Below are positions 16,227 through 40,513 of a stretch of DNA of 64,000 bases, in pieces. Source of the stretch: Mycobacteriales bacterium (lineage in GTDB: Bacteria; Actinomycetota; Actinomycetes; Mycobacteriales; SCTD01); the NCBI GenBank assembly GCA_040902655.1, contig JBBDWV010000052.1:81503-145502 (forward strand), read 5' to 3'. Each line of letters opens with the position of its first letter. Position 1 is the first letter of the stretch. Both the position numbers and the translations under genes were made by a program. Under the pieces are notes generated by a model that saw only the letters and a program-made list of their open reading frames with translations, was not told the origin of the DNA and searched no databases.

Positions 16227-17974
16227 TGCGGCGCCGTCCGCACGTGCACGACGGCGACCTCGCCCGCGAGGGCCTTGGCCACGCCCTCACCGAGGGCGCC
16301 GGGCAGGTCGTCGGGCTCGCAGACCGGCCCCGTCGCCCAGCAGCCGTACGACCGGGCCAGCGCTGCCAGGTCGACAGCCGGGCCGGTCATGCGCATCCCG
16401 ATCCAGCTGTTGTCCGCCGCGCGGCCCCGGTGGCGTGCCACCTCCGCCTGGTGCGGCTCGTCGTTGTAGAAGCTGCTGTTGTCGTTCACCACCACCAGAG
16501 CCGGGATCTTGTAGTGGACGGCGGTCCAGAGCGCCCCGGGGGCCATGAGCAGATCGCCGTCACCCAGGATCCCGACCCCCAGCTGACCGCGGTCGCGAGC
16601 AGCCAGCGCCCCTCCGACCAGGGCCCCTGGCCCGTAACCGACCCCGCCCCCGCCGGAGTGACCGAGGTAGCTGCCGGCGCCCGGGAACTGCCAGACGCCC
16701 TCGGGCCAGGTGCGGGTGTTGCGCAGGCAGAGCAGGTGCTCGACGTCTTTGACCGCCCGCCAGGTCTCGGCGACGAGGCGAGAGGGGGCGATCGGCGTGC
16801 CGTCCCAGCGCTGCTCGACCGCGGCCCACTGCCGCGCGCGCAGCGCGGATACCCGGCGGCAGACGGCGTCACGGCGCCGGTCCGCCGCGGCGGGGTCGAG
16901 TCGCCTGCGGACCGCGGCGGTCAGCTGTGCCAGACCGAGGACAGGGTCGGCCAGCAGCTGCACGGTGCGGGGGACGGGCACGGCGAACGCATTGCTCCAG
17001 GACCGCAGGCCCAGGTCGCCGTGAGAGAGGTCGACCACCGCAGCGTCGGGCAGCGGCGCGGTGTCCCCGCGGCCACGACCCTTGCTCCGCAGCAGCCCAG
17101 GCAGGTCCACGACGTCGACCGCGAGGACCACGTCCGCCTCATGCAGCAGGTCGACGTCGCCGGTGGCGTTCTGGCGGTGGGCGGTCGGGAAGGCGACGTT
17201 GTTGCGGTCGTCGCGATAGGCCGCGCCGAGCAGCTCGACGAGCGCGACGAGCGGGGCCGTCGCCCGGGTGTCCAGGCCGATCCGCCCGGCGATGACGACC
17301 GGGCACTCAGCCGCGACGAGCAGCTCTGCGGCGCGGTCGACCTCCGACTGGAGCGCCGCAACCGGCGGTGCGGGAGCGTGCAGGGCCAGGTCCGGCAGCG
17401 GGACCGGACCGGCCAGCTCTTCCTCCTGCACGCCGGCGTCGAGCGAGACGTAGGCGGGTCCTCGCGGCGCGGACAGGGCCCGCTGCCGGGCCCGCGTGAC
17501 GTCCGCCACCGAGGCCGCAGCGGTCGCGGGTTCGGCGTCCCACACGACGAAGTCGCGGACCAGCTGGGCCTGGGTCGTGGCCGAGTGGATCCAGTCGATG
17601 GGCCGACGCTGCGCGGGGTCCATCGGGCCGCTGCCGCCCAGGACCAGCAGCGGCGTGCGGTCGCAGAAGGCGTCGTAGACGGCCATCGAGGCGTGCATCA
17701 ACCCGACGAGGTCGTGTACTGCCGCAACGCCCAACCCGCCGGTCGCCTTGGCGTACCCGTGTGCCAGGGAGACCGCGATCTCCTCGTGCAGGCACAGCAG
17801 CAGCTGCGGGCTGCGGTTGCCGCCGTGGTTGACCAGCGAGTCGTGCAGGCCGCGGAAGCTCGAGCCCGGGTTGAGCGGGACGTAGGCGATCTCCATGGAC
17901 CGCAGCAGGTCGACCACGGCGTCACTGCCGTAGGTGGCGGACGGTCCGCCCGGTACGGGCAGCTCGACGCTCAC
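16223..17974 (-). CDS. ThDP-dependent acetolactate synthase-like enzyme (copy 3)
   Basis: A 583-residue ThDP enzyme closely related to the one at 57: both have LNPGSSFRGLHDSLVN, LCLHEEIAVS and PIDWIHSATTQAQLVRD. The diphosphate motif is LGDGDLLMAPGALW followed by VVNDN. The GTG start at 17974 overlaps the stop of the AAA+ ATPase gene by GTGA, and its own stop overlaps the hydrolase gene, so AAA+, ThDP enzyme and hydrolase are likely translated as a coupled unit. The reading frame stays open upstream into the ATPase gene, but that is a shadow in another frame and not a fusion. Probable function: decarboxylation or carboligation of a 2-oxo acid. Confidence 0.9.
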   Translation of the reverse strand: MSVELPVPGGPSATYGSDAVVDLLRSMEIAYVPLNPGSSFRGLHDSLVNHGGNRSPQLLLCLHEEIAVSLAHGYAKATGGLGVAAVHDLVGLMHASMAVYDAFCDRTPLLVLGGSGPMDPAQRRPIDWIHSATTQAQLVRDFVVWDAEPATAAASVADVTRARQRALSAPRGPAYVSLDAGVQEEELAGPVPLPDLALHAPAPPVAALQSEVDRAAELLVAAECPVVIAGRIGLDTRATAPLVALVELLGAAYRDDRNNVAFPTAHRQNATGDVDLLHEADVVLAVDVVDLPGLLRSKGRGRGDTAPLPDAAVVDLSHGDLGLRSWSNAFAVPVPRTVQLLADPVLGLAQLTAAVRRRLDPAAADRRRDAVCRRVSALRARQWAAVEQRWDGTPIAPSRLVAETWRAVKDVEHLLCLRNTRTWPEGVWQFPGAGSYLGHSGGGGVGYGPGALVGGALAARDRGQLGVGILGDGDLLMAPGALWTAVHYKIPALVVVNDNSSFYNDEPHQAEVARHRGRAADNSWIGMRMTGPAVDLAALARSYGCWATGPVCEPDDLPGALGEGVAKALAGEVAVVHVRTAPQ

Positions 17975-18813
17975 GACCCGGACCCGACCGCCGCGTGCAG
18001 GTCCTCGGCCAAGAGCAGACTCGGGTCGAGCGCCACCTCGCGTCGCTGCGCCAGGGCCGCGAGCACCAGCTTGCGGACCCGGCGCCCGTCCCAGCCCGTG
18101 CAGCGTTCGGCCAGCGCGGCGTGCAGCGCGTCGTCCTCGGCCAGCGGCTTGATGTCCGGCCAGATCCCGGCCAGCTCGCGCAGCGACGCGGCGACGATGG
18201 CCGCGACGGTTGCGGCGTCCGGGAGCGGGACGTGCAGGACGAGGTCGGCGCGCGAGAGGAACGCCTCGTCGATGGCCTGCGGGAAGTTCGTCGTCGTCAC
18301 GAACAGCACCCCCGGGTGGGACTGCGCGACCGCGTCGATGCCGGCCAGGAGCGCGTCGGTGGCGCGATGGACGTCGACGGGGTTGGTTTCGAAGGAGGCG
18401 ACCGAGCGGCGCACGGCCAGCGACTCGACCTCGTCGATGAGGACGACGGTGTGTGGCCGGCGGGCAGCGAGCTCGGGGACCGTGTCGTACAGCAGCCTGG
18501 TGATGGCCCGCTGGCTCTCGCCGAGCATCTCGCTCGGGAACGCGTGCGGGTCCACCTCTACATAGGTGGTCGCACCCTGGGGTGCCAACGCGCGCGCCGC
18601 CGCCTGGGCCAACCCGCGGGCCAGCGTCGTCTTGCCGGTCCCCGGAGGACCGGCAAGCACGATCAACCCGTGGGGAAGGCCCGGCAGCGTGGCCAGGCGG
18701 TGGCCGTGCCGCATGGTGAGCAGCGCGGTCGACAGCAGCCGCTCCTTGGTGCCGGGTGGCACCAGGATGTGGTCCCACGGGCCGTCGTGGTGATCCGAGG
18801 GCAGGGCGTGCAT
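17971..18813 (-). CDS. TRIP13/Pch2-like AAA+ ATPase
   Basis: A single-domain AAA+ ATPase of about 280 residues. It has Walker A GPPGTGKTTLA (about residues 55-65), Walker B VVLIDEVESL (about 123-132), sensor 1 LFVTTTNF, an arginine-finger-type block AFLSRADLVLHVPLP and sensor 2 GWDGRRVRKL. The combination IDEVESL, TTTNF and GR-VRKL is typical of the TRIP13/Pch2 group, which remodels partner proteins by pulling on their N-termini. No HORMA-domain gene or nucleotidyltransferase is nearby, so a CBASS role is not supported. The neighbours are a bicupin upstream and a ThDP enzyme downstream, which suggests a remodelling or reactivating role for one of them. The start is uncertain: ATG 18813, or GTGs slightly upstream. 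Confidence 0.8.
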   Translation of the reverse strand: MHALPSDHHDGPWDHILVPPGTKERLLSTALLTMRHGHRLATLPGLPHGLIVLAGPPGTGKTTLARGLAQAAARALAPQGATTYVEVDPHAFPSEMLGESQRAITRLLYDTVPELAARRPHTVVLIDEVESLAVRRSVASFETNPVDVHRATDALLAGIDAVAQSHPGVLFVTTTNFPQAIDEAFLSRADLVLHVPLPDAATVAAIVAASLRELAGIWPDIKPLAEDDALHAALAERCTGWDGRRVRKLVLAALAQRREVALDPSLLLAEDLHAAVGSGS

Positions 18814-18853
18814 GGAGAGCACGCCCTGCGGCAGGGCGCTGGACCGCACCGGC

Positions 18854-19921
18854 TCAGGGCCAGGTGGGGCGCTCGACGGCCGGCCAGTCGACCGTCGACG
18901 GGTCACCAGCCTGGGCATCGCGGATCTCGTCCGACGGCTCTTCGAACAGCACCATCGGATCCATCAGCACCCGCATGGTCTCGAGCAGGCTGTCGAACAT
19001 GTGGATCCGGACCACCTTGGCGGTCTTGTCCGGGTCGTCGTTGAAGTGCTGGTGCCACAGGAAGTGGTCGACGACGATGATGTCGCCCTTCTCCCACGGG
19101 TGGTTCTCGCCCTTGTCCGGCTCGGTGCCGAGAAAGCTGTGCCCGCGTCCCTCGACGACGTAGAGCCAGGCCTCACCCGGGTGCCGGTGCATCGACTGGC
19201 CCCGGCCGGGACCGATCTCGAACATCGCCATGGTGATGCCGGACGCCTGGTAGCCGATGGCCTTGTCCAGCAGGAACGTCGTGCGCGTGCCGCGCGGGGT
19301 CGGCAGCAGCTCGAGGGAGTCCCAGCTGGTGTGCAGCCGGCCGGAGCGGCGGGCGTCCTGGTCTCGGGCCAGTCGACGCACGCGACGGGCGTAGGGGTCG
19401 TCGCCGTCGATGGCCGGCGCGTACGGCGGGCGCGGCGCGAGCTCTGCCGCCGGGGTCTGCCCGGCGTCCTCGAGGAAGGCCATGCCCATCGTCTCCAGCA
19501 GCGGCTCGCTGGAGAAGCTCAGGAAGCGGCCCGTCTCGCTGCCCTCGTTGCCGTGCCGGTGCCAGGCCCAGGCCGGCAGGTGCAGGGAGTCGCCGGGCCC
19601 CCACTCGATGCGCTCTCCGTCGATCTCGGTCCAGCCCCAGCCGGCGACGACGAACAGCATCGCGTCCCAGGAGTGGCGGTGGACGGTGGAGGTGGCGCCG
19701 GGGTTGATCTCGTGCACGAGGGCGTCCATCGAGCGGGTGGGCCGGTCGCCGTCGGCGCCGACGTAGACGCCGCGGCGCATACCCCGCGCCGTGTCCTGCA
19801 TCTCGACATCGGCCAGGCGCACCACCGTGTTGCGGTACTGCCGCCACTGCTCGAGGAAGTCGGCGCGGCGCTTCTTCTGCACGTGGTAGTGCGTGACCGC
19901 AGTGGTCGTCTTGTTCGGCAT
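18854..19921 (-). CDS. Bicupin protein, gentisate-dioxygenase-like (bicupin 1)
   Basis: A 355-residue protein with two cupin barrels. The N-terminal barrel has TVHRHSWDAMLFVVAG and AWHRHGNEG; the C-terminal barrel has MHRHPGEAWLYVVEGRGHS and LWHQHFND. Both barrels therefore keep metal-type histidines. This layout is that of gentisate and 1-hydroxy-2-naphthoate 1,2-dioxygenases, which use Fe(II) to open aromatic rings, but sequence alone does not prove dioxygenase activity. It begins one base after the TctC-like gene stop and precedes the AAA+ ATPase by 40 bases. Distant paralogues are at 24311 and 39380. Confidence 0.83.
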   Translation of the reverse strand: MPNKTTTAVTHYHVQKKRRADFLEQWRQYRNTVVRLADVEMQDTARGMRRGVYVGADGDRPTRSMDALVHEINPGATSTVHRHSWDAMLFVVAGWGWTEIDGERIEWGPGDSLHLPAWAWHRHGNEGSETGRFLSFSSEPLLETMGMAFLEDAGQTPAAELAPRPPYAPAIDGDDPYARRVRRLARDQDARRSGRLHTSWDSLELLPTPRGTRTTFLLDKAIGYQASGITMAMFEIGPGRGQSMHRHPGEAWLYVVEGRGHSFLGTEPDKGENHPWEKGDIIVVDHFLWHQHFNDDPDKTAKVVRIHMFDSLLETMRVLMDPMVLFEEPSDEIRDAQAGDPSTVDWPAVERPTWP

Positions 19922-19922
19922 G

Positions 19923-20969
19923 TCAGTAGCTCTCCGTGACGAGGGCGGTGAATTCCTCCGGCGACTGGAGGACGTCCTGGATGAGTTGCGCGGTCTCTTC
20001 GCCGCTGAGTGGGTCCAGCGGGCGCTTCTGCTCCTCCAGCTCGGCCAGCAGGTCGTCCTGCTCGACCGCGCACTGGAAGCCCTCGCGCAGCGCCGTCAAC
20101 CGGGCGTCGTCCATCTCCGGCGACGCCATCAGCGCTCGGCCGGTCTGTCCCATCGCCACCAGGCTGTCGATGATCGCCTTGGCGTCCTCGCCCGGATCGG
20201 TGTCGTAGATCGTGGGCGTGTCCGGCAGCAGCGGGTCCGGCTCCTCGTCGATGGTGACGATCGGCCGCACGTCGCCGGACTCGATGGCGCCGAGCTGGCT
20301 GTCGACGGGCAGTGCATGAGCGTCGGCGTCGCCGGCGATGACGGCGGTGCGTGCCTCGGAGGAGCCGGCGAAGCCGGTGATGATCTCGTACGGGAAGTCG
20401 TAGGCCTGGGCAACGATGTTCGGCGCGATGTAGTCGTTGGCCCCTTCGCCCTGGGCGACGAAGCGGATCGGCGAGGAGGCGTCGACCATGTCCTGGAAGC
20501 TCTTGATGGGGCTGTTAGCGCCCACCACGATGACGTTGGGCGGCGAGGAGACCCGGCCGATCCAGGACAGGTCGTTGAGGTCGAAGTTGGCCCCCTCCGC
20601 GCCGGCGAGCTGTGCTGAGACCAGCCCGGCGGTGTTGACGATCTGGATCCGGTCCGCGTCGGTTGGCGCGGCGGCCGTCTTGTTGGTGGCCAGCAGGCCG
20701 CCGGCACCCGGCTCGTTCTTGACCACGATGGTGGCGCCGAGGCACTGCTCGAGGTAGGGAGCCATCGCGCGGGCGTAGGCGTCGTAACCGCCGCCGGGCT
20801 CGTACGGCACGACCAGGTCCAGGGCCACGCCGTCGAACACCGCCTCGTCAGCAGCGCCCCCAGCCGGTGCGGCGGTGTCGCTGCCGCCTTCGTCAGATCC
20901 GCAGGCGACCAAACCTGCCAGCGCGGCTGCCAGCACCACTCGGTGCGCGATGCGCGGGGGCCTGGGCAT
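19923..20969 (-). CDS. TctC/Bug-family tripartite tricarboxylate binding lipoprotein
   Basis: A secreted protein of 348 residues with lipoprotein signal (VVLAAALAGLVACGSDEGG, lipobox LVAC near residue 23). The mature protein follows the Bug/TctC pattern: LDLVVPYEPGGGYDAYARAM, GATIVVKNEPGAGG and later FVAQGEGANDYIAPNIVAQ. Bug proteins capture carboxylates for TctAB permeases or act as sensors. No TctA or TctB gene is in the window. The ATG at 20969 has GAAAGGG upstream. It is the first gene of the five-gene minus-strand operon down to 15567, with an operator-like motif 32 bases upstream of the start. Confidence 0.85.
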   Translation of the reverse strand: MPRPPRIAHRVVLAAALAGLVACGSDEGGSDTAAPAGGAADEAVFDGVALDLVVPYEPGGGYDAYARAMAPYLEQCLGATIVVKNEPGAGGLLATNKTAAAPTDADRIQIVNTAGLVSAQLAGAEGANFDLNDLSWIGRVSSPPNVIVVGANSPIKSFQDMVDASSPIRFVAQGEGANDYIAPNIVAQAYDFPYEIITGFAGSSEARTAVIAGDADAHALPVDSQLGAIESGDVRPIVTIDEEPDPLLPDTPTIYDTDPGEDAKAIIDSLVAMGQTGRALMASPEMDDARLTALREGFQCAVEQDDLLAELEEQKRPLDPLSGEETAQLIQDVLQSPEEFTALVTESY

Positions 20970-21000
20970 CACTGGGCGCGCCCTTTCGACGTAGGCATAA

Positions 21001-21011
21001 TGGTCAGTCCA
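21001..21011 (-). promoter_or_regulatory. Putative operator, site 4 (TGGACTGACCA on minus strand)
   Basis: On the minus strand TGGACTGACCA, one base away from TGGTNNNACCA. It lies just upstream of the TctC-like gene and would suit control of the five-gene operon. It shares the 200-base divergent gap with site 5. Confidence 0.42.
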
Positions 21012-21104
21012 AAGAACCACAGTCGTGGTCAGGTGGCAAGGCCCCCAGGACGACTTGCTGCCTCGGCGCGACGGAGCAGGTTCATCACTCGCGCAAGGAA
21101 CCTA

Positions 21105-22781: not shown

Positions 22782-24281
22782 GTGCACAACGACCACGACC
22801 ACGACCACTGGCACAGGTCCGGCCCGGCCGGAGAGTCGGACCGCACCTTCCTGGACGTGGAGGGTCTCGAGCAGTACACGCTCACCTCGGTGGGCGTCGA
22901 CATCGGCTCATCGACCTCGCAGGTCATGGTCGCCGGCCTGACCATTCGGCGCCGCGGAAGTGACCTGTCGACCGAGTTCGAGGTCACCGAGCGCGAGATC
23001 CGCTACGTCAGTCCACCGCTGCTGACGCCGTACTCCTGCGGCACGAGGATGGATGTCTCCCTTCTGGAGCAATTCGTCCGGGAGTCGTACGCGCAAGCCG
23101 GTCTCGTGCCGGAGCGCGTGGACACGGGTGTGGTCGTCGTCACGGGTGAGGCGCTGAACAAGGAGAATGCAGCGGAGATCGCCGCTCTCGCCTCCAGTTG
23201 GTCGGGGGACTTCATCTGCGTCTCGGCCGGTGCGAACCACGAGGCGGTCCTTGCTGCACACGGCTCGGGGTCGGTGGCGCTCTCCGAGCGGGAGAACTGC
23301 ACGGTCCTGAACGTCGACATTGGTGGTGGGACGACGAAGGTCTGCCTCATCGACCGCGGGCGGATCGTCTACCGGGAGGCCTTCAGCGTCGGTGCCCGCC
23401 TCGTCGCCTGGGAGCCGGACGGCCGGATCGCCAGGCTGGAGGCCCCGGCTCACGTGTTCGCGGCCCAAACCGGAGACGCGCTCCAGCTCGGCGGCACCAT
23501 CGGCCCGGGTGAGATCGACCGGTTGGCCGAACTCATGGCGCAGGTGGTCCTCGACGCGATCGTCCCAGGCCCGGTTGCCGGGCTCCGCCGTGACCTCATG
23601 GTCACCCACGCTGCGGATGCGGCGGCGGCGGAACGACCGGCTTTCGACCGGATAGTTTTCTCGGGCGGCGTCTCGGAGTACGTCAACCGCGACGAGGTGG
23701 AGTCCTACGGGGACTTCGGACCCGCGCTCGGCGGGCACATCCGGCGTTGCCTGTATCAGGCCGGTCTCGCTGAGTTCGTCACGCGCGCCGAGCACGGCAT
23801 CCGGGCCACGGTCATCGGTGCGAGCCAGTTCTCGGTCCAGGCAAGTGGCCAGACCTGCTACATCTCCGCGGACCACCTGCTCCCGGTAAGGAGCCTGCCC
23901 GTCGCGCACGTCGAATTTTCTCCCGGAGCGGACCCGGAGGAGGCGATCCGGGTCGCGCTGCGCGGACGCGATCGGTCCGACCTGAGTGATCCACTCGCGC
24001 TGGCAGTGTCCTTCCAGGGCCGGCGGAACTACCCGGCGCTGCGCCGCTACGCGGAGGCGCTGGTACTCGTGGCGGCGGGTTCGGCCCTCTACCTGGTCCT
24101 CCGGGACGACCTGGCCCAGGCCCTTGGTCGCCTGATGGTCGCCGAGCTGGCCCATCCCGGACCGGTCGTCGTCGTCGACGGGATCACCGTCGGCGATCTG
24201 GACTACCTGGACATCGGCCGCCCCATGGGGGCGACCCGCTCGATCCCGGTCACGATCAAGTCCCTTGCCTTCCCCCGATGA
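22782..24281 (+). CDS. EutA-like ASKHA-fold protein with His-rich N-terminus (copy 1)
   Basis: A 499-residue member of the EutA family (ethanolamine ammonia-lyase reactivase) in the actin/Hsp70 ATPase superfamily. Phosphate 1 motif is VGVDIGSSTSQVMV (about residues 37-50), phosphate 2 is LNVDIGGGTTKVCLID (about 175-190) and the adenosine region is FSGGVSEY. EutA releases damaged cobalamin from its lyase using ATP, but no EutB/EutC or other B12 enzyme is in the window. The N-terminus carries a run of alternating His and Asp (HNDHDHDHWH), a likely metal-binding tail. GTG start with CCGGAGG upstream. The stop overlaps a bicupin frame; the same pairing occurs at 37698-40513. The target may thus be the bicupin. 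Confidence 0.82.
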   Translation: MHNDHDHDHWHRSGPAGESDRTFLDVEGLEQYTLTSVGVDIGSSTSQVMVAGLTIRRRGSDLSTEFEVTEREIRYVSPPLLTPYSCGTRMDVSLLEQFVRESYAQAGLVPERVDTGVVVVTGEALNKENAAEIAALASSWSGDFICVSAGANHEAVLAAHGSGSVALSERENCTVLNVDIGGGTTKVCLIDRGRIVYREAFSVGARLVAWEPDGRIARLEAPAHVFAAQTGDALQLGGTIGPGEIDRLAELMAQVVLDAIVPGPVAGLRRDLMVTHAADAAAAERPAFDRIVFSGGVSEYVNRDEVESYGDFGPALGGHIRRCLYQAGLAEFVTRAEHGIRATVIGASQFSVQASGQTCYISADHLLPVRSLPVAHVEFSPGADPEEAIRVALRGRDRSDLSDPLALAVSFQGRRNYPALRRYAEALVLVAAGSALYLVLRDDLAQALGRLMVAELAHPGPVVVVDGITVGDLDYLDIGRPMGATRSIPVTIKSLAFPR

Positions 24282-24310
24282 ACCCGAAGACCGCCCTGCC
24301 GAGGAGTGAC

Positions 24311-25429
24311 ATGCCAGAAGAAACTCAGCCCACCCCCCGCACAACGTTCGTCTACGACGAGTGGATGGAGAGCCAGGAGCTCCCAATCTACCGGGGGCAC
24401 TTCGTACCCGACATGCGGACCCTCCCTCTGGCGCGCTGGGAGGAGCGCGGTTGCGATGCGGCGTTCGTCCAGCTGACCGGCCAGGAGGGAGTGAGCGAGG
24501 CGCGCATCACCGAGATCGCGCCGGGTGAGACCCTGCCGCCGTTCAAACTCGCCATCGACGAGATGGTCTACGTGGTGAGCGGTTCCGGCTCCACCCGCGT
24601 GTGGGCCCACGGTAACCGGGCCGAGGACGGACACCAGTTCGAGTGGCACGACAAGGCGCTGTTCATGATCCCGCCGAACCACTACGCGGAGTACAGCAAT
24701 CTCCGCGGTGACCAACCCGTGCGCCTGCTGCACTACACCTATTTGCCACTGGCCATGTCGCTGGTGACGGATCCTGACTTCTTCTTCGACAATCCGTACA
24801 GCCGCAGCACGAGCAGCATCGGCTTACAGTCCGCGTTCTCTGAAGCCAAGATGATCAGCGGTGGAGAGGGCTTCCGGTGGATCATCAGCCGGCACAGGAA
24901 CGTAGCGTACTGGTACGGCAACTTCTTCCCGGACATGGGCGCATGGGAGAAGTTGGACGCAAACCCTTACCGAGGTGCGGGTGGCAGCACGGTTCGCATG
25001 CAGTTCGCGGGATCGGACATGAGCTGTCACATGTCGGTGTTCGACGCAATGACTTACAAGAAGGCGCATCGGCATGGACCCGGCCGCGTCATCGTCATCC
25101 CCTCGGGGGAGGGCTATTCGACCTTGTGGCTGGAGGGTCAGGAAGAGCCGGTGGTCGTGCCGTGGCAGGAAGCGGCACTGTTCGTGCCGCCGGACCGTTG
25201 GTTCCATCAGCATTTCAACCTGAGTGGTGAACCGGCCCGATATCTGGCGCTCCATCCGCCGATGCAATTTCACGGCTACGCAGAAAAGGCAGAAGACCGC
25301 GAGCGGGATCAGATCGAGTACCCGGACCAGGACCCCAGCGTCCGGCTGCGCTTCGAGGCGGAACTGGCGAAGCGTGGCCTCGAGAGCCGCATGCCGAAGG
25401 ACGCCTACGAGGGCCACGGCGACGCCTGA
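24311..25429 (+). CDS. Bicupin protein paired with EutA-like gene (bicupin 2)
   Basis: A 372-residue double-cupin protein. The C-terminal barrel is complete in its metal motifs: KKAHRHGPGRVIVIPSGEGYS and RWFHQHFNLSGEP. The N-terminal barrel has ETLPPFKLAIDEMVYVVSG and NHYAEYSN and has lost most ligands. It is closely related to the protein at 39380 and resembles ring-opening dioxygenases of the gentisate type. The ATG at 24311 follows GAGGAGTGAC closely. An ATG at 24278, overlapping the upstream stop (ATGA), would add 11 residues. Third codon positions look poorer in G/C than in neighbours left of 21 kb, a hint of different origin. Confidence 0.83.
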   Translation: MPEETQPTPRTTFVYDEWMESQELPIYRGHFVPDMRTLPLARWEERGCDAAFVQLTGQEGVSEARITEIAPGETLPPFKLAIDEMVYVVSGSGSTRVWAHGNRAEDGHQFEWHDKALFMIPPNHYAEYSNLRGDQPVRLLHYTYLPLAMSLVTDPDFFFDNPYSRSTSSIGLQSAFSEAKMISGGEGFRWIISRHRNVAYWYGNFFPDMGAWEKLDANPYRGAGGSTVRMQFAGSDMSCHMSVFDAMTYKKAHRHGPGRVIVIPSGEGYSTLWLEGQEEPVVVPWQEAALFVPPDRWFHQHFNLSGEPARYLALHPPMQFHGYAEKAEDRERDQIEYPDQDPSVRLRFEAELAKRGLESRMPKDAYEGHGDA

Positions 25430-26518: not shown

Positions 26519-26898
26519 CGGGCGAGGATCTCCCTCGACCCGTCCGGCGGAGGTGACGTTGCCGGAGGTTCTGAAGAACCCAGACTTCGACCCGACTGCC
26601 GAGAGTGGTCCTCAGTCAGATCGGCGCGCGGAAGGGCGTAGCCAACATGTACCACGTCTACGCGTTGACCTTCTCGATCGCCTACACCGGACTCGCCGGG
26701 CCGGTCAGCCGCCGCGCTGCTGCTGCTCAGCCCGCTGGGTTGTCTGCCCGCCGCACGGCTTTGAGCCGCGACGGCTGCTCCAGTCGGCGCAGGCGGTCTT
26801 GCTCGTGGTGCGCTCGGCCTGGCGGTGTTCACATTCAGCGGCCTGACGAGGCCTGGCACGTGCTGCTCAAGACGGTGGCCGCGAGGTGCGCCTGGTAG
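26519..26898 (+). pseudogene. Remnant of an ATPase tail and MFS gene
   Basis: From about 26553 the DNA follows the first 115 codons of the MFS gene at 12526 (LPEVLKNPDFD, then SQIGARK and MYHVYALTFSIAYTGLAG) with many frameshifts. Just before it, 26519-26552 matches the last codons of the ATPase at 11379, including GATCTC-CTCG and the spacer GAGGTG-CGTTGCCG. The remnant therefore preserves an ATPase-to-MFS junction like that of cassette A. The DNA between 26354 and 26518 and between 26900 and 27069 shows no gene that I recognise. Confidence 0.85.
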
Positions 26899-30053: not shown

Positions 30054-30114
30054 CGGCGTCCTGTAGCACAAAGCCGAACTTCCTGAGGCACCCGAGAGAC
30101 AGGACGTAGATTCA

Positions 30115-31230
30115 ATGCCACTACTCCTCGAGCACACACCCAGAATCCGTCTTGCGCGTCGGCGTGTCGTCGCGGTCACCCTGAGGAAGAAGGACCCGAA
30201 GTGGCGGTTCGCGCTGGGCGCGCGGCCACTCTCCGAAGGCGTCGTTGTCGATCTGGAGTCCGAGGACGGGGTGCACGGGTACGGCTGGGTCGGAGAGATC
30301 CAGCACCTGGGCCATGACCTGGAGTCGGTCCGAGCAGCCACCTACTCACTCGTCGAATCCGTGAGTGAGCTGAGCACGGAAACGCTGCTCCCCCTGTTCG
30401 CGAGGCTGGAGGAGGCGGCCGCCGGGCGACGGCCGGCCCTCTCCGGTGTGGAGTCGGCTGTCCTGGACCTGATCGCGCGCACGCAAGGAGTGCCGGTTCA
30501 CGCACTTTTCGGCGGCACCTTCCGCAGTGAGATCCCTGTGCTGCGAATCTTGGGCATCAAAGAGCCGGACGAGATGGCCGTCAACGCGCAGAAGCTCCGG
30601 GCCGAGGGCTATCGACACATCAAGGTCAAGATCGACAACGATCCTTCCGGTGTCGACGCCGAGCGGATCCGCGCGATCCGCAGCGCGGTGGGCCCGGACG
30701 TCCGTCTGACCCTCGATGCCAATCAGTCCTACGACGCCCGGGGAGCCTGCGCGCTCTACGAGCAGATCAGCGACCAACGCATCGATGTCTTCGAACAACC
30801 AGTTCCCGCCAAGGATTGGGAAGGCCTGCGTCAGGTCTCGGACGCCCTCGACTGCATTGTGGAGGCGGACGAATCCGCTGACAGCATGCCTGCTCTTCTT
30901 CGTCTCGCGGGCACCGGTGCTTGTACCGGCATCAGCTTGAAGCTGCTGAAGCTGGGTGGCTTACGGGCGGTGCTGCATGCCGCCCGTGTCTGCCGGGACG
31001 CGGGGATCCATACACGACTGGGGGCCCACGTCGGGAGCCAACTGCTCGCAGCGGCAGCGCTCCAAGCGGCGGTGGCGGTCGAGGACATCAGCTTCGCGTG
31101 CGAGCTCGCCGAGTTCGCACGGCTGGACGACGATCCGTTCGAAGGTCTCACAGTCGAGGGCGGCGTCATCCGGCTTGGATCCGCGACAGGCCTTGGCGTT
31201 CGTTTGTTGGACGGCGCGCTGACGACATGA
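30115..31230 (+). CDS. Enolase-superfamily enzyme (mandelate racemase / muconate lactonizing type)
   Basis: A 371-residue enolase-superfamily protein with the MLE/dipeptide-epimerase type barrel. It has a lysine pair in HIKVKID (about residues 163-169) and metal ligands in LTLDANQSY, VFEQPVP and VEADES, and a second lysine pair in ISLKLLKLGG. AHVGSQ follows. Enzymes of this type abstract a proton next to a carboxylate and racemise, epimerise or cycloisomerise it. The gene lies between a permease and an acyl-CoA ligase, so it probably acts on the imported acid. The upstream ribosome site is weak. The specific reaction cannot be chosen between muconate-like cycloisomerisation and epimerisation. 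Confidence 0.87.
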   Translation: MPLLLEHTPRIRLARRRVVAVTLRKKDPKWRFALGARPLSEGVVVDLESEDGVHGYGWVGEIQHLGHDLESVRAATYSLVESVSELSTETLLPLFARLEEAAAGRRPALSGVESAVLDLIARTQGVPVHALFGGTFRSEIPVLRILGIKEPDEMAVNAQKLRAEGYRHIKVKIDNDPSGVDAERIRAIRSAVGPDVRLTLDANQSYDARGACALYEQISDQRIDVFEQPVPAKDWEGLRQVSDALDCIVEADESADSMPALLRLAGTGACTGISLKLLKLGGLRAVLHAARVCRDAGIHTRLGAHVGSQLLAAAALQAAVAVEDISFACELAEFARLDDDPFEGLTVEGGVIRLGSATGLGVRLLDGALTT

Positions 31231-31282
31231 CCGTGACGGTTGACCCGGTACACCCATCGACCAGCCCTGGAGGCGTTGCTTC

Positions 31283-33397
31283 GTGACTTCCGTGCTCGAC
31301 TCGTTCTTGCAACCGGCCGGTATCGCCATCGTCGGAGCGACCGATGAGCGCTACTACGCCCGCAGCCTGATCCGGAATTTGCTCGCGGCCGGCTTCCCTG
31401 CGGAGAACGTCTACCCGGTGCACCCGAGGCACGAGACGGTCGGAGGCCTGACCTGCTACGCAGATCTCGCGTCGATCCCCAACGCGGTGGACCTCGTTGT
31501 CGTGATCACTCGTGCGGATACCGTGGCGGAGATCATTAGGGAGGCCGGAAAAATCGGCGCGAGCGCCGCTCTCGTGCTCGCGGATGGCTTCGCCGAACAG
31601 GGGGAGGCCGGAAGGAAGCTGCAGGAGGAACTCGCCGTCACCGCTGGCGAAACGGGAGTCGCAGTTCTTGGACCCAATACCCTCGGTTTTCTCGCGCCAC
31701 CGGAGGGGGTCGGCGCTTGGGCCGCGGGCGAGCTGTCACAGCCGTTGATCCCCGGCAGCGTGGGCGTCGTCTTCCAGTCCAGCGGGATCCTCAACCTGTT
31801 CCTCACCCTCTCGGTCCAGCGCCGGCTCGGAATCCGGGCCGCCTTCTCGACGGGCAACGAGGTCTCCGTCGATGTGGCTGACCTGGTTGAATACTTTGCG
31901 CGCGACGACAAGACCCGCGTCATCGCCATGGTGCTCGAGACGACCACCCGTCCCCGCCGGCTGATCGCGGCGCTGAAGTTGGCGCGATCGATGGGCAAGC
32001 CGGTCGTCATGCTCAAGCTCGGCGCGTCGGAGCGGGCACGGCGCAACGCCGTTGCTCACACCGGGCGGATGGCCAGCTCGGCCTCGGCCTGGGAAGCGAT
32101 GCTGCGTCGGCTCGACGTCGTCCTCGTTCATGATCATGATGAGTTGGTCGAGGCAGCAGCGCTGTTCGACGCCGCCCCCTCGCCCGACCGATCCGGGGGG
32201 CAGCGGCCGGCCGGGGCCGCCCTGGTCACGATCTCCGGCGGCGACTGCAGCCTCCTCGCCGACCTCGCGGAGCGGGAGGGCCTCCCGTTGGCCGACCTCA
32301 CCCCCGAGACGGTGACTCAGCTCGCCGACGTGCTGGAGAAGCCGGGCCTGCTGGGTAACCCGCTGGACTGTGAGAATCTGCACCAGACGGACTACGAGGC
32401 CTTCCTCGAGGCAGTCGGCATCCTGTGCGGTGACCCGGGAGTGGACATCGTCGGGTTCCGACTCAACCTCCCCAGCGACCCCACGGACCGACTGCGGAAG
32501 TTGTACCGGGACGCCACGACCGTAGCCCGCGAGTGCGGCGTGGAACCGGTCGTGCTGAGCCGAGCGAGCGAGCCACTGGCCGCAGAGTGGTTCACGGTCT
32601 TCTCCGAGCTCGGCGTGCCCTTCCTGCCGGCCTTTCGCCCTGCCGTGACCGTTATGAGCAGGTGGTGCGCCCGGTCGGAGCCGGCAATCGGACCCGACGT
32701 GGCGCTCGAGTCGGTGCCCGAACACGTGTCCGCGCCTAGCCAGGGCACCGTCGCCTCCTGGCAGCAGACCCAGGAGTTTCTGGGGCGAGCCGGCATCCCA
32801 TATGCGCCGTGCGCTCTGGTCAGCACCCAGCTAGAGGCCGTGACAGCCGCGGCCACGCTGCCTTACCCCCTCGTCGCCAAGCTCATCTCACCCGACGCGC
32901 CGCACAAGAGTGACCTCGGTGGCGTCATCACAGGACTGGGTGACGAAGCTGCGGTGGCCGAGGCCTTCACACGGCTGCAGGGCATCGCCGCGGAGAACAG
33001 GCTGCCCTTGGAGGGCGTGGAACTTCAGGCGATGATCTCCGGCGGCTTCGAGATGATCCTCGGGCTCAAGGTGGACCCGGTCGTCGGTCCTCTGCTGCTG
33101 GTCGGCGTCGGTGGCGTGCTGGCCGAGGTCACCCACGACGTCGTGCTCGATGTTCCCACCCTGGATCAGCAGTCTGCCGAGCAGCTGATCCGGCGACTCA
33201 CCAGCGCTCCCTTGTTCGCGGGGTACCGCGGGCGGGACCGGCTGGACATCTCCGCGTTCGCGTCGATCGTCGTCAAGCTGGCGGAGTTCAGTATGCAGGA
33301 GTCCGGTCAGATCCTGGAGTTGGACTTGAATCCCGTGCTGGTCATGCCCCAGGGGCAAGGCGCGGTAGCCGTAGACGCTCTGGCGGTTGTTCCGTGA
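31283..33397 (+). CDS. NDP-forming acyl-CoA synthetase (acetate-CoA ligase family)
   Basis: A 704-residue fused alpha-beta acyl-CoA synthetase. It starts with a CoA-binding Rossmann domain (PAGIAIVGATDERYYARSLIRN). Succinyl-CoA-ligase-like domains follow, with GPNTLGFLAP and the phospho-histidine-type loop VAHTGRMAS. It ends with an ATP-grasp domain (YPLVAKLISPDAPHKSDLGGV and EMILGLKVDPVVGPLLLVGVGG). It would activate a carboxylic acid to its CoA ester using ATP with ADP release. GTG start with TGGAGGCG upstream. Downstream of the enolase-type enzyme and upstream of a beta-hydroxyacid dehydrogenase, it fits a CoA-dependent breakdown of the imported acid. The substrate is unknown. Confidence 0.9.
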   Translation: MTSVLDSFLQPAGIAIVGATDERYYARSLIRNLLAAGFPAENVYPVHPRHETVGGLTCYADLASIPNAVDLVVVITRADTVAEIIREAGKIGASAALVLADGFAEQGEAGRKLQEELAVTAGETGVAVLGPNTLGFLAPPEGVGAWAAGELSQPLIPGSVGVVFQSSGILNLFLTLSVQRRLGIRAAFSTGNEVSVDVADLVEYFARDDKTRVIAMVLETTTRPRRLIAALKLARSMGKPVVMLKLGASERARRNAVAHTGRMASSASAWEAMLRRLDVVLVHDHDELVEAAALFDAAPSPDRSGGQRPAGAALVTISGGDCSLLADLAEREGLPLADLTPETVTQLADVLEKPGLLGNPLDCENLHQTDYEAFLEAVGILCGDPGVDIVGFRLNLPSDPTDRLRKLYRDATTVARECGVEPVVLSRASEPLAAEWFTVFSELGVPFLPAFRPAVTVMSRWCARSEPAIGPDVALESVPEHVSAPSQGTVASWQQTQEFLGRAGIPYAPCALVSTQLEAVTAAATLPYPLVAKLISPDAPHKSDLGGVITGLGDEAAVAEAFTRLQGIAAENRLPLEGVELQAMISGGFEMILGLKVDPVVGPLLLVGVGGVLAEVTHDVVLDVPTLDQQSAEQLIRRLTSAPLFAGYRGRDRLDISAFASIVVKLAEFSMQESGQILELDLNPVLVMPQGQGAVAVDALAVVP

Positions 33398-33449
33398 CCC
33401 GCGCGCAGGCGCACAGTCCCCATCCCCGACAGGAAAAGAGAAGCGACCC

Positions 33450-34301
33450 ATGACCAACCTCCCGAGCCCGGCCGCTGACCATGTTGTCGGTGTTCTCGGT
33501 CTTGGCGCCATGGGCGCTCCCATGGCGCGGCACCTCCTCGCGGCCGGTCACCTCCTGTACGTCCACGACCTGAATCCGGCCGCGGTCAACGCTGCCGTCG
33601 AACTCGGAGCCAAGGCTGCCGGCAGCCCGCGGGCGCTGGGGGAGAACTGCGACGTCGTTCTTGTCATCGTCCCGACCGATGAGGACCTGCTCGACGTCTG
33701 CACGGGCGTCGACGGCATTCTCTCGAACGCCCGCGACGGACTCGTCCTGTTGATGTGCAGCTCTGTACGTCCCGAAACTTGTCAAGCCGTTGCTGCGGCG
33801 GCTCCGGCGGGCGCCGAGGTCCTCGACGCGGCGCTGACCGGAGGGGTCCGGGGGGCCGAGGAGGGCGTGATCAACCTGCTTGTCGGCGGCAACGAGCAGG
33901 CACTGGACAGGGTTCGACCCGCGCTCGCTCCCTGGACGCGCGACGTCCACCATCTCGGGCCCCTCGGGGCGGGCCAGGTGGGCAAGACGGCGAACAACCT
34001 CATCCACTGGGCACAGATCTCGGTGATCGTGGAGGCTTTCGAGCTGGCACGTCGTCTGGGGGTCTCGGTCCCGAAGTTGCGTGCGGCCCTCGAGACGGGC
34101 CCCACCGACAGCCGCACGCTGCGTGAACTGGAAGACATGCGCTTCACGTGGCACGCGAAGGATCTTGCGAATGCGTCCGCGATGGCCGAACCAGTGAGCA
34201 TGCCGCTCCCTGTGGCCGAGATCTCACGTCAAGCAATGCTGGAGATCACCGTGCCGCGGGTCACCCGTCTTCTCCGGGGCGAGGATCCGCGGGATGAGTG
34301 A
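33450..34301 (+). CDS. 3-hydroxyisobutyrate dehydrogenase family NAD(P)-dependent reductase
   Basis: A 283-residue beta-hydroxyacid dehydrogenase. The dinucleotide motif is GVLGLGAMGAPMARHLL near the N-terminus. The substrate-binding block is LDAALTGGVRGAEEGVINLLVGG, and the catalytic lysine lies in GQVGKTANNLIHW. Family members oxidise 3-hydroxyisobutyrate, tartronate semialdehyde, or related 3-hydroxy acids. AGGAAAAGAG precedes the ATG at 33450. Its place between an acyl-CoA ligase and an ABC ATPase suggests an oxidation step in the same pathway. Confidence 0.9.
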   Translation: MTNLPSPAADHVVGVLGLGAMGAPMARHLLAAGHLLYVHDLNPAAVNAAVELGAKAAGSPRALGENCDVVLVIVPTDEDLLDVCTGVDGILSNARDGLVLLMCSSVRPETCQAVAAAAPAGAEVLDAALTGGVRGAEEGVINLLVGGNEQALDRVRPALAPWTRDVHHLGPLGAGQVGKTANNLIHWAQISVIVEAFELARRLGVSVPKLRAALETGPTDSRTLRELEDMRFTWHAKDLANASAMAEPVSMPLPVAEISRQAMLEITVPRVTRLLRGEDPRDE

Positions 34302-34352
34302 CGTCCGAACTCCAGCCCCACAACCCGAGCCGAGCAAGTTCCAGGAGCACTG

Positions 34353-35498
34353 ATGCTACGAGTTGAGCAGCTCGTGAAGACATTCGCCGGCGACCACAGC
34401 GGAGGCAAAGACGATGAGCAGGAAACAGGGTCGCGCCGCGTCTTCGCTGTGAACGGGGTCAGTTTCACCGTCGCAGAAGGTGAGCTGTTCACGCTCCTGG
34501 GTCCCTCCGGATGCGGGAAGTCCACCACCCTCAGGTCGATTGCCGGCCTCGAGGACCCCGACTCCGGATCGATAGCCCTGCAGGAGCGAATGCTCTTTTC
34601 TCGTCAGGGCCGTTCAAAGCCGGTGAATGTGGCCGTCCATGAGCGGGGCTTGGGGATGGTGTTTCAATCCTATGCAATCTGGCCGCACATGACCGTGTTC
34701 GACAACGTCGCCTTCCCCCTGCAGGTGCGCCGACGCAAGGACAAGTTGACACGGAAGGTCATCGAATCGCGCGTGATGCGCGTTCTCGAGACCATGGAGT
34801 TGACGAAGTACGCGCAGCGCCCTGCGACCAAGTTGTCCGGCGGCCAGCAACAGCGCCTCGCTCTGGCCCGGGCCATCGTGATCGAGCCGCCCCTACTGCT
34901 CCTCGACGAGCCCCTCTCGAACCTCGACGCCAAGCTGCGTGAGTCGCTGCGCGACGAGCTGAAGCGGTTGCAGCGCGAACTCGGTATCACGTCGATCTAT
35001 GTCACGCACGACCAGGTTGAGGCCTTGGCGCTGTCGAGTCGGATCGCTGTCATGCAGGAAGGGAACATCGTCCAGCTCGGTCGGCCGCGCGAGATCTACA
35101 ACAGCCCGAGCTGCAAGTTCGTCGCCGAGTTCATCGGGACAACCAACTTCCTCCCGGGCGTCGTATGTCTCCGCGAGGGCTCCCGGTACGTCGTGAGGAC
35201 TTCGGCGGGCGAGCTGACCCTCGACTCTCCCATCGACGTGCCCGTAGGAAGCGATGTGGTTGTCTCCGCGCGTCCCGAGGTCATCGACCTGCACACGGAG
35301 GGGAGCGCCCTGTCCGTGGCCAACGAGTGGAAAGGCACTGTCCTGAGCCGCTCGTTCCTCGGAGACTCGGTCGATCACCTCGTGGGCGTGGGTGAGTACA
35401 CCCTCCGGGCAAGGGTGAATCCGTCGGTCTCGATCCAGCCGCAAAGCCAGGTGTTCATCCGTATGAGCGCCGACCGCTTGACCATGATGGCCGCTTAG
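34353..35498 (+). CDS. ABC transporter ATP-binding protein (cassette B)
   Basis: A 381-residue ATPase nearly collinear with that at 11379. It has Walker A GPSGCGKSTTL, signature LSGGQQQRLALARAI, Walker B LLLLDEPLSNLD and switch VTHDQ. C-terminal TOBE-type sequence includes VVSARPEVIDLHTEG. The variable insert after strand 1 is acidic (HSGGKDDEQETGSRR) instead of basic. It presumably energises the permease at 28251 although four genes lie between. The likely stop signal for the unit is a small hairpin at 35509. Confidence 0.93.
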   Translation: MLRVEQLVKTFAGDHSGGKDDEQETGSRRVFAVNGVSFTVAEGELFTLLGPSGCGKSTTLRSIAGLEDPDSGSIALQERMLFSRQGRSKPVNVAVHERGLGMVFQSYAIWPHMTVFDNVAFPLQVRRRKDKLTRKVIESRVMRVLETMELTKYAQRPATKLSGGQQQRLALARAIVIEPPLLLLDEPLSNLDAKLRESLRDELKRLQRELGITSIYVTHDQVEALALSSRIAVMQEGNIVQLGRPREIYNSPSCKFVAEFIGTTNFLPGVVCLREGSRYVVRTSAGELTLDSPIDVPVGSDVVVSARPEVIDLHTEGSALSVANEWKGTVLSRSFLGDSVDHLVGVGEYTLRARVNPSVSIQPQSQVFIRMSADRLTMMAA

Positions 35499-37697: not shown

Positions 37698-39296
37698 TCA
37701 GTTGCTGGCGAAGCTCTTGGGGCCACCGTCTGGCAGTGGGTCCTGGCTGAACACCAGCGACTTGATGGTCACGGGGACGGTGCCGGACGGCCAGCGGAGG
37801 CGGCCGAGGTCGATGTAGTCGAAGTCGCGCAGGCTCAGTCCGTCCACGACCATCAGTTCGCAGATCACACCCAGCTCCTCCCGCAGGAGGCGGCCCAGCG
37901 TCATGGCGACGTCGCCGTCGAGCAGCACGTAGATCGGACGGCCCTGCACGGTGCGCTCGGCCAGCCCGTCGCGGATCCCCTGCGCGAAGGGCAGCAGCCG
38001 CTCGTGGCTGGGCAGCCCGCTCCACGCCATGGCCAGGGCGACGTCGGCGTCCGCGCCGGCCAGTGCCCCGAGGTGGCGCCGGACGGCGTCGGCGACCTCA
38101 TTGGCGTCGACGGCATCCGCCAGCTCGTAGGCCGGGCGCAGCACCTGCAGGTTGCGACGGGGCAGCAGGGCGTCGGGATCGGTGATGCAGCCGGTGTTCC
38201 CGCTCAGTTGAACGCTGTACTCCGACGCGCCAAGGGCCGTGGCGCGGATGCACTCACCGGGCGGGAGGAGGGGGCAGGGCAGCACGCCGGCGTCGACCCT
38301 GCGTCGCACGGCAGCTCCCAGCGCGGGTCCGAGGTCACCGAATCGGCTGGTCTCACGGTCGTAGACGTACTCCGCGACCCCGCCGGAGAAAAGCACTCCG
38401 TCCAGCTCGCCGAGCTCGCCGAGCGGAGCGGTGAGCCACAGGTCGTCGACCTCCGACTCGCCCGTGTCCGCCAGGATCGCGTCTACCAGCGCGTCCGCCA
38501 TCACCTCGGCCACGACCGCGAGGTCGCCCAGAGCAACGAAATCGCCGAGCTGCCAGTTGAAGTCGGCGCGCGCCGCATGCAGTCGCCCGGCTGGCTCGAG
38601 GCGGACTATGCGGTTGCCCTCGTCAACGACCTGCAGCCGCCCGCCCACGTGGAAAGCCGCCGTGCGCACCACCCGCCCACGGTCCACGAGCGCCAGCTTC
38701 GTGGTGCCGCCACCGATGTCGACGTTGAGGATCCGCGACCCTGCGTCGTAGGACGTACGGGCCGCACCCGAGCCGTACGCAGCCAACATCGCTTCCATGT
38801 GATGGCCGGCGGTGGCGGTCACGAGCTCCCCGCCCCGCTCGGCGAGAATGCCGGCGATGGCCTCGGCGTTGCCGCGCCGCAGCGCCTCACCGGTGAGGAT
38901 GACGACCCCGGTGTCCACGTCGGCCGGATCCACGCCTGCCTCGGCATACGCACGGTCGATGATCGATCCCAGCACGGGAGCGTCGATCTGCTCGTTGGAG
39001 GCGTACGGGGTCAGGGCGACCGGTGAGCGGTAGGTGGTCTCGCGGCGCACGACGACGTAGCGGCTGGCGAGGTCCTCGCCGATCCTGCGCAGGTGGAGTC
39101 GGGAGAAGACCACCTGGGTCCCCGACGAGCCGATGTCCATGCCCACGCTGTGCAGCGTGACGTTGTCCTGCTGCCAGACGGGGTTCTCCTGGAGCGGGTG
39201 GAGGGCTTCGTCGTCGCGCTCGTGGTCGTGGTCGGGCAGGTGCGGGGAGTGGACCGTGCGCGGCTGCTCCTGCTGGGCGTGGACGCGGTGCGTCAC
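37698..39296 (-). CDS. EutA-like ASKHA-fold protein with His-rich N-terminus (copy 2)
   Basis: A 532-residue EutA-family protein. Phosphate motifs are VGMDIGSSGTQVVF and LNVDIGGGTTKLALVD; adenosine-type motif is FSGGVAEY. The N-terminal 45 residues before the fold are hydrophilic and rich in His and acidic residues (HSPHLPDHDHERDDEALH), comparable to copy 1 at 22782. GTG start with GAGAGG upstream. It is 83 bases downstream of bicupin 3 on the same strand, so the bicupin/EutA-like pair is kept here in opposite order to 22782-25429. EutA is a reactivase for a B12 lyase in ethanolamine use, yet no such lyase is seen here, so the target is open. Confidence 0.83.
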   Translation of the reverse strand: MTHRVHAQQEQPRTVHSPHLPDHDHERDDEALHPLQENPVWQQDNVTLHSVGMDIGSSGTQVVFSRLHLRRIGEDLASRYVVVRRETTYRSPVALTPYASNEQIDAPVLGSIIDRAYAEAGVDPADVDTGVVILTGEALRRGNAEAIAGILAERGGELVTATAGHHMEAMLAAYGSGAARTSYDAGSRILNVDIGGGTTKLALVDRGRVVRTAAFHVGGRLQVVDEGNRIVRLEPAGRLHAARADFNWQLGDFVALGDLAVVAEVMADALVDAILADTGESEVDDLWLTAPLGELGELDGVLFSGGVAEYVYDRETSRFGDLGPALGAAVRRRVDAGVLPCPLLPPGECIRATALGASEYSVQLSGNTGCITDPDALLPRRNLQVLRPAYELADAVDANEVADAVRRHLGALAGADADVALAMAWSGLPSHERLLPFAQGIRDGLAERTVQGRPIYVLLDGDVAMTLGRLLREELGVICELMVVDGLSLRDFDYIDLGRLRWPSGTVPVTIKSLVFSQDPLPDGGPKSFASN

Positions 39297-39379
39297 GGGT
39301 GCCTCTCATCGTCCTGGTGCGACGTGCTCGTGAGGCCCGCTCAGGGGGCCAGGGCGGGCCGCACGCCGTTCGTGGCGGC

Positions 39380-40513
39380 TCAGACGCGAGCCGGCTCCTG
39401 GTGCTTGGCCGGCAGCGTCGGCAGCTCAGCCTGGTAGACCTCGTCCATCTTCGGCTCGAGCCCGACCTCGGCCAGAGCTGCGCGGAACGTGTCGCGCACG
39501 AGAGAGGACTCGTCGGCGTAGTCGATCTGGTCGCCACCGATGCGCTGGCTGATCCACGCCTTCGGGACGCCTTGCGCGTTGCGCACCGAGACGACCTCGT
39601 GCTTGAAGGCCAGGTAGCGGGCCGGCTCGGTGCCGGTGTTGAAGTGCTGGTGGAACCACATGTTCGGCGGCACGATCAACGTCCCGGCGTGCCACTCGTA
39701 GCGGCGGGGCTCCTCGCCCTCCGGCCACATCAGGCTGTAGCCCTCGCCGGAGAGCATGATCACGTGGGCGCCCGGGCCGTGCCGGTGGCCCTTCTTGTAG
39801 GTCGCTGTCGGGAACTGCGAGATGTGGCTGTTCATCGACCCCTTCGCCATCGAGAAGCGGATGTGGCCGCCGCCTGCACCGCGCTCCTTGGCCTCGATGA
39901 GCGGCAGGTTCACCGCGTCGGCGACGAAGTTGGTGTCGAGCAGCAAGCCCTTCTGCTCGCCCGTGGGCGCAAAGTAGTCCGGCTCGCCGTTGAAGCGGTT
40001 CGGGAAGTCCTTGGGCGTGCCGAACACGAAGTCGGCGTCGTCGTAGAGGTTGATGATGGGCGGCATGTTCGTGGAGGAGACGAAGCGCGCCGCGCGCTGG
40101 CCGGAGCCGTTGAAGTGCTGGTGGTGGGCGTTGAGCGGGATCGCGAACAGCGACCCGGCCTGCCACTCGAAGGTGACCTCGGCGCCCGCGTCGTTCCAGA
40201 CCCTGGTCGAGCCCTGGCCCTCCAGCACGAGGACCATCTCCTCGAACAGCTGCCGCTGGGGCGCCAGCTTGCCGCCGGCCGGGATCTCGCAGACGTAGCA
40301 GTCGTTCGAGGTGCGCGTGGCCTCGTGGTTGATGAACACTCCGCGCCCGCCGCGGCGCTCCCACGGCTTCAGCTCGACGGTGCGCAGGTCCGGCACGTGG
40401 TGGGCCGCGATGATGTCCAGGCCCTCCGCGGCGACCCAGCGGGTGTAGGGGGAGTCCTTCTCGGTGGCGAACTTCGCCGCCAGGTTGCTCGAGACGATCG
40501 CGTCCTTGGCCAT
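39380..40513 (-). CDS. Bicupin protein paired with EutA-like gene (bicupin 3)
   Basis: A 377-residue double-cupin protein, closely related to bicupin 2. The C-terminal barrel carries YKKGHRHGPGAHVIMLSGEGY and MWFHQHFNTGTEPARYL. The N-terminal barrel has LFEEMVLVLEGQGSTRVW and HHQHFNGSG, retaining more ligands than in bicupin 2. It is a possible Fe(II) ring-opening dioxygenase or a binding protein. The ATG at 40513 has AGGAGG nine bases upstream, and a perfect operator motif lies 45 bases upstream. The EutA-like gene follows on the same strand, and an IclR regulator gene ends 78 bases upstream. Confidence 0.83.
   Translation of the reverse strand: MAKDAIVSSNLAAKFATEKDSPYTRWVAAEGLDIIAAHHVPDLRTVELKPWERRGGRGVFINHEATRTSNDCYVCEIPAGGKLAPQRQLFEEMVLVLEGQGSTRVWNDAGAEVTFEWQAGSLFAIPLNAHHQHFNGSGQRAARFVSSTNMPPIINLYDDADFVFGTPKDFPNRFNGEPDYFAPTGEQKGLLLDTNFVADAVNLPLIEAKERGAGGGHIRFSMAKGSMNSHISQFPTATYKKGHRHGPGAHVIMLSGEGYSLMWPEGEEPRRYEWHAGTLIVPPNMWFHQHFNTGTEPARYLAFKHEVVSVRNAQGVPKAWISQRIGGDQIDYADESSLVRDTFRAALAEVGLEPKMDEVYQAELPTLPAKHQEPARV

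Follow-up and report, generated by a model that had tools for sequence, protein, structure and literature searches.

The stretch analysed here, a window of 64,000 nucleotides (G000:C52:81503-145502) in an actinobacterial genome of 3.56 Mb, contains an island in which two genes for gentisate/salicylate-dioxygenase-like proteins with two cupin domains (bicupins 2 and 3) each lie next to a gene for an EutA-like ATPase of the ASKHA fold. The coupling of such ATPases with bicupins of this type is near certain; as to its chemistry, we infer that the bicupin-linked EutA proteins are probably dedicated to these cupins, which they would load with metal or reactivate at the expense of ATP. An earlier note on this DNA had reported three bicupins, each beside an ATPase, and all six genes were found, including the EutA-like neighbours of bicupins 2 and 3:

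22782..24281, + strand: EutA-like ASKHA ATPase, partner of bicupin 2 (PF06277, 321 bits, E 1.7e-95)
22782..22838, + strand: His/Asp-rich N-terminal tail of the ATPase of bicupin 2 (VHNDHDHDHWHRSGPAGES; read from the sequence, a clade-wide feature)
24278..25429, + strand: bicupin 2, gentisate/salicylate-dioxygenase-like (HRH and HQHFN motifs in the C-terminal cupin)
37698..39296, - strand: EutA-like ASKHA ATPase, partner of bicupin 3 (PF06277, 356 bits; ASKHA fold in the AlphaFold2 model)
39159..39296, - strand: His/Asp-rich N-terminal tail of the ATPase of bicupin 3 (residues 1-34 disordered in the AlphaFold2 model)
39380..40513, - strand: bicupin 3 (AlphaFold2 model matches salicylate/gentisate 1,2-dioxygenase)

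The start of bicupin 2 overlaps the stop of its EutA-like gene (ATGA at 24278-24281), and 83 bp separate the end of bicupin 3 from the start of the EutA-like gene downstream. The third PF06277 gene of the genome, located on another contig (C5:64056-65468), comes immediately after a bicupin of the same type as bicupins 2 and 3, so that each of the genome's three EutA homologues has a bicupin beside it. Since bicupins 2 and 3 share 37% identity and their EutA partners 39%, the two pairs in the window are paralogous. The earlier note had counted three independent pairings; the three adjacencies stand while their independence does not, because two of the pairs are paralogous and bicupin 1 is distant from the other two (about 22-23% identity) and adjoins an ATPase of another kind.

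The same pairing was found in unbiased phylum samples, composed of 296 Actinomycetota genomes drawn evenly and 201 Chloroflexota genomes, which were searched with PF06277 and a bicupin profile (A1), only the best candidates per genome being scored. Among the Actinomycetota, PF06277 occurs in 10 genomes and the bicupin in five; in all five, a PF06277 gene sits directly beside the bicupin (8/8 bicupins) and no EutB was found, G000 included, the EutB search of this sample being confined to EutA-bearing genomes. In the other five EutA genomes, EutB adjoins EutA in every case and none has a bicupin. The Chloroflexota sample has PF06277 in 16 genomes, the bicupin in 15 and both in 14, and the two genomes having EutA without a bicupin (G351 and G483) carry an EutA that is canonical according to the tree. 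Fisher tests gave 5e-11 for Actinomycetota (bicupin-type EutA) and 1.4e-18 for Chloroflexota, values which are inflated by shared ancestry, the same pattern nevertheless recurring across phyla. The idea of the earlier note, which hinged on bicupins and EutA-like genes not being rarely adjacent elsewhere, thus survived: they adjoin each other not only in Actinomycetota and Chloroflexota but also in Alphaproteobacteria and further lineages.

A scan of genome contigs seeded by the bicupin profile, of which the best 80 loci were kept, recovered loci from Chloroflexota, Deltaproteobacteria/Binatota, Acidocella, Rhizobiales, Streptomyces, Acidobacteriota and others. The 29 genomes reached from bicupin loci, a set biased by this choice, all have EutA homologues (1-10 each) with EutB in only one, and their bicupins number 413 in total, against 92 EutA matches. 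As many as 33 paralogous bicupins in a single genome were counted among G298, G302, G306, G313, G315 and G321, which come from Chloroflexota and Deltaproteobacteria loci. Plasmids give the same picture, as the four records with such bicupins (three from Sinorhizobium and one from Phyllobacterium) are those having the four best, non-eut-type EutA matches; on the Phyllobacterium plasmid the order is TctABC, thiamine diphosphate (ThDP) enzyme, NAD(P) oxidoreductase, bicupin (annotated "hypothetical protein") and EutA, the same parts as in the island. No bicupin-EutA fusion was found. Two further arrangements were observed: in Deltaproteobacteria/Binatota (L014, L016, L017, L021 and L024), bicupin-EutA(-EamA-bicupin) cassettes lie directly downstream of apparent F-type ATP synthase genes, and at L119, L121 and L123 solo EutA-like genes, with no bicupin next to them, precede a conserved gene for a small protein of the metallo-beta-lactamase fold (PF14597).

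The setting of the bicupins is one of aromatic acids, their neighbourhoods containing Rieske oxygenases, dienelactone hydrolase, amidohydrolase, RraA, UbiD, EamA carriers and transporters of the Tct and ATP-binding cassette (ABC) types. One bicupin locus, L046, is that of SAR202-VII-2; 25 ring-cleaving dioxygenases have been described for it, and gentisate dioxygenase is the annotation of some of them (PMC6123686). Neighbours of this sort would also be expected if the linkage merely came from mobile aromatic-degradation cassettes, the EutA-like protein acting on another part of the pathway such as a transporter or a regulator. This we hold to be rather improbable, as EutA is the commonest neighbour family of the bicupin (31 loci, against 16 for the Rieske oxygenase, which comes second in a comparison of 83 loci), no other gene tracks the bicupin as closely, co-occurrence in genomes is near absolute and the two genes co-segregate paralogue by paralogue.

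In terms of gene order, 56 of the 92 distinct EutA proteins, a number that includes canonical EutA, are encoded at most 400 bp from a bicupin and 55 of these 56 on the same strand, when position alone would place ca. 1.6 of the 92 within that distance. The junctions of the close pairs are short or overlapping, with many gaps below 100 bp. Mirror-tree distances of the partners correlate (r 0.62), permutations reaching no more than 0.13. Because such a correlation alone could mirror species history, a within-genome test on paralogues was preferred, in which 39 of 40 quartets, not mutually independent, agree in that the EutA better matched across genomes has the better-matched bicupin. The choice of partner is therefore paralogue-specific, which suggests, from sequence comparison, direct contact between the EutA-like protein and the bicupin.

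Tight operons and paralogue-specific co-evolution would equally suit a two-subunit enzyme in which the ATPase is a catalytic partner that phosphorylates or activates the substrate before the cupin converts the product, in the manner of the ASKHA subunits of ATP-dependent hydantoinase and acetone carboxylase, and kinases do occur among ASKHA folds. With 413 bicupins for 92 EutA in the 29 genomes, however, most bicupins have no one-to-one partner, a kinase role leaves the His-rich tail of the ATPase unexplained and the nearest cupin folds are dioxygenases that need no ATP; we thus consider a catalytic partnership unlikely. That ratio is closer to what a helper would show than to what would be expected of a stoichiometric subunit.

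Both ATPases of the window match PF06277 over their full length, far above the cut-off of 27 bits. The ATPase motifs of the bicupin 2 partner (DIGSSTS, VDIGGGTTK and FSGGVSEY) are intact, and the phosphate-1, phosphate-2 and adenosine motifs of ASKHA proteins are conserved in the EutA-like proteins. The AlphaFold2 model of the bicupin 3 partner (predicted local distance difference test score, pLDDT, 84.5; predicted template modelling score 0.81) has ASKHA structure matches with Z up to 17.4, and a sequence search against solved structures returned no EutA-family structure, only MreB with a low score. These proteins are not canonical EutA: their best scores with the NCBIfam EutA equivalogs are 270 and 288, for cut-offs of 598-952, and in the tree bicupin-linked EutA are split from canonical EutA by a branch of length 2.04 (Shimodaira-Hasegawa-like approximate likelihood ratio test, 100). 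Canonical ethanolamine use was also considered for the source genome and was ruled out because EutB is absent.

The top Foldseek match of the model is a 2-hydroxyglutaryl-CoA dehydratase activator (E 3e-9) which, together with a weak PF01869 score, could point to a reductive activase of the HgdC/BcrAD type that would use ATP-driven electron transfer to reduce the oxidised iron of the cupin. HgdC/BcrAD activators hold an Fe-S cluster through cysteines; in the EutA-like proteins a single Cys is nearly invariant (alignment position 160) and is absent from the bicupin 3 partner, while by Z the model aligns slightly better with the folds of exopolyphosphatase and FtsA. Because the conserved cysteines are lacking, a redox activation of this kind was ranked low and appears very improbable.

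Bicupin-linked EutA begin with a tail whose consensus is MHDxxxDHxH, represented in the window by VHNDHDHDHWH and HSPHLPDHDHERDDE and in Streptomyces by HHEDHSHSHDHSHHSHDHGHDHG. At least two His occur in the tail of 80 of the 83 members and an HxH in that of 67, and the His content of the tail is 10.3% versus 2.4% in the remainder of the protein. Canonical EutA start a few residues before the first ATP motif or have no comparable conserved tail, with the proviso that two canonical reading frames are open upstream, which makes their starts uncertain. His-rich tails are typical of metal handling, and a metal role for the His/Asp-rich tail is accordingly supposed by analogy with what such tails usually do. 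Together with the absence of EutB, the tail would fit metal loading or reactivation.

The AlphaFold2 model of bicupin 3 (pLDDT 89) has the bicupin fold, the top ten VIA-align matches being all salicylate/gentisate 1,2-dioxygenases (Z 20.3-21.5). With the gentisate dioxygenase equivalog TIGR02272 (cut-off 442 bits), bicupins 2 and 3 give 18.4 bits or no match. None of their invariant His residues (230, 243, 245, 288 and 290; HRH, HQH and one more) falls in the N-terminal cupin; the C-terminal cupin has them all. Salicylate 1,2-dioxygenase has a three-His metal site in its N-terminal cupin; such a site is missing from that cupin in bicupins 2 and 3. They are most likely single-metal cupins that take part in the catabolism of aromatic compounds as ring-cleaving Fe(II) dioxygenases. 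The genome has a fourth bicupin, a divergent one, upstream of the window (L011:9215-10540); its neighbours are an aldehyde dehydrogenase and a Tct transporter, and neither type of ATPase lies beside it.

The remaining pair of the island involves bicupin 1 and an AAA+ ATPase of the TRIP13 type, a family known from the cyclic-oligonucleotide-based antiphage signalling systems (CBASS), and lies in the following gene run:

16223..18052, - strand: ThDP-dependent enzyme of the bicupin 1 gene run (TPP_enzyme_N and TPP_enzyme_C)
17971..18918, - strand: TRIP13/Pch2-type AAA+ ATPase, CBASS-type (PADLOC TRIP13; PCH-2 nearest in the Protein Data Bank)
18854..19921, - strand: bicupin 1, a separate subfamily closer to true gentisate dioxygenases (Cupin_2 twice; TIGR02272, 70 bits, below the cut-off)
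19923..21020, - strand: TctC-type solute-binding protein, upstream of bicupin 1 (PF03401)

The AAA+ gene comes after bicupin 1 on the same strand and, as the earlier note had proposed, its product is TRIP13-like (PADLOC model PDLC00915, 326.8 bits), the nearest solved structures being pachytene checkpoint protein 2 (PCH-2). No HORMA or oligonucleotide cyclase gene is found beside it, the neighbours being the bicupin, the ThDP enzyme, TctC and an isochorismatase-like hydrolase. Its plasmid relatives adjoin oligonucleotide cyclases, some of these records having an annotated or PADLOC-detected HORMA protein, and a third actinobacterial relative (L177) also has CBASS-type neighbours, as judged by sequence. 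Orthologues of bicupin 1 occur in three genomes among 396 Actinomycetota, all three with a ThDP enzyme gene nearby.

The earlier note had extended a single rule to all bicupins, so that every type, bicupin 1 with its AAA+ protein included, would need an ATP-driven remodeller. For the EutA pairs the adjacency held, with co-occurrence across lineages, and for bicupin 1 the rule was not supported: the AAA+ orthologue does adjoin bicupin 1 in G183, a genome of another family, but the two genes are convergent there, the third genome has a bicupin 1 (59%) with no AAA+ nearby, and adjacency in two of three genomes is too little for a rule. With a different cupin subfamily and an AAA+ from the CBASS TRIP13 family, whose relatives accompany HORMA and cyclase genes, this pair was set apart; it does not support the EutA-cupin rule, and the wider rule seems quite improbable.

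Returning to metal loading or reactivation by the EutA-like ATPase, the following sequence of events appears more likely than not. Each bicupin would be co-produced with its own ASKHA ATPase from the separate EutA-family clade, whose client would be the cupin and not ethanolamine ammonia-lyase. The disordered His/Asp-rich tail would bind and supply the metal while ATP binding and hydrolysis by the ASKHA core would open the cupin subunit or assembly, allowing a site that is empty, mismetallated or oxidised to be cleared and supplied with metal again. A single ATPase may also act in trans on several cupins. Several observations weigh against this scheme: one Chloroflexota genome (G330) has a bicupin with no EutA detected, EutA adjoins only a minority of the bicupins in bicupin-rich genomes and ca. 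9 of 30 EutA loci in these genomes lie more than 1.5 kb from any bicupin. Likewise, a His-rich tail alone does not prove metal delivery, and since canonical EutA works on a B12 enzyme, a change of client is deduced from gene context alone.

B12 enzymes are known to be served by reactivases of the EutA/diol dehydratase type, of which canonical EutA acts on ethanolamine ammonia-lyase. A more far-reaching proposal, for which we see even chances, is that a clade of EutA-type ASKHA ATPases left the B12 enzyme and became a dedicated, paralogue-specific machine for both metal loading and reactivation of non-haem cupin dioxygenases with the His/Asp tail as metal donor. Many bacteria of soil and sea, SAR202 among them, would then depend on ATP-driven enzyme repair for aerobic ring cleavage. 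If the ATPase loads or restores the metal, a repair system of this kind has probably not been described for gentisate-dioxygenase-like cupins; the open papers searched held nothing relevant on an EutA-cupin or cupin-metallochaperone link, and the "EutA" of ectoine papers is a different gene. The pairing occurs in soil and ocean bacteria and, were the proposal true, many genes automatically named "EutA" would lie outside ethanolamine metabolism, heterologous ring-cleaving cupins made without their partner may be inactive, and genomes that degrade recalcitrant aromatic carbon, with up to ~30 such cupins each, would share a testable dependency. It would also offer a concrete route for the loading or repair of mononuclear iron sites.

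Upstream of bicupin 3, one more gene was located whose name derives from sequence clustering, not from a family search:

40591..41346, - strand: IclR-family-like regulator (clusters with IclR-like proteins encoded beside Streptomyces and Acidocella EutA genes)

Elsewhere in the island, three paralogous ThDP-dependent enzymes of one subfamily (57-1826, 2564-4381 and 16223-18052) adjoin isochorismatase-like hydrolases and TctC proteins. Two alike ABC transporter sets of the iron/aminoethylphosphonate type (9558-12524 and 28005-35498) correspond to an apparent duplication and are accompanied by several substrate-binding proteins (6565, 8061 and 27106). At 26605-26898 lies what is probably a pseudogene fragment, a short and degraded copy similar to the beginning of the major facilitator superfamily gene at 12337.

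When compared with known systems, the AAA+ protein of the bicupin 1 run belongs to the same family as TRIP13/Cap6 of HORMA-containing CBASS but stands in a catabolic gene run without HORMA or cyclase. Bicupins 2 and 3 share with gentisate and salicylate 1,2-dioxygenases the bicupin fold, a histidine metal motif and an aromatic-catabolism neighbourhood, and differ from them by an identity of only 11-16%, by conserved His confined to the C-terminal cupin and by the partner ATPase. The ASKHA fold and, putatively, ATP-driven enzyme activation are common to the EutA-like proteins and the HgdC/BcrAD activators, the former having no conserved cluster cysteines. With EutA (PF06277) itself, the window ATPases share the full-length Pfam domain, intact ASKHA motifs and a gene beside the presumed client, whereas they fall far under the NCBIfam EutA cut-offs, form a clade outside the canonical one, bear a His/Asp-rich tail and have a cupin as neighbour in a genome without EutB. 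Finally, metallochaperones of the HypB type are NTPases with a His-rich N-terminal tail encoded beside a metalloenzyme gene; the EutA-like proteins share this tail and a metalloenzyme neighbour, but are built on an ASKHA core instead of a G3E-type GTPase.

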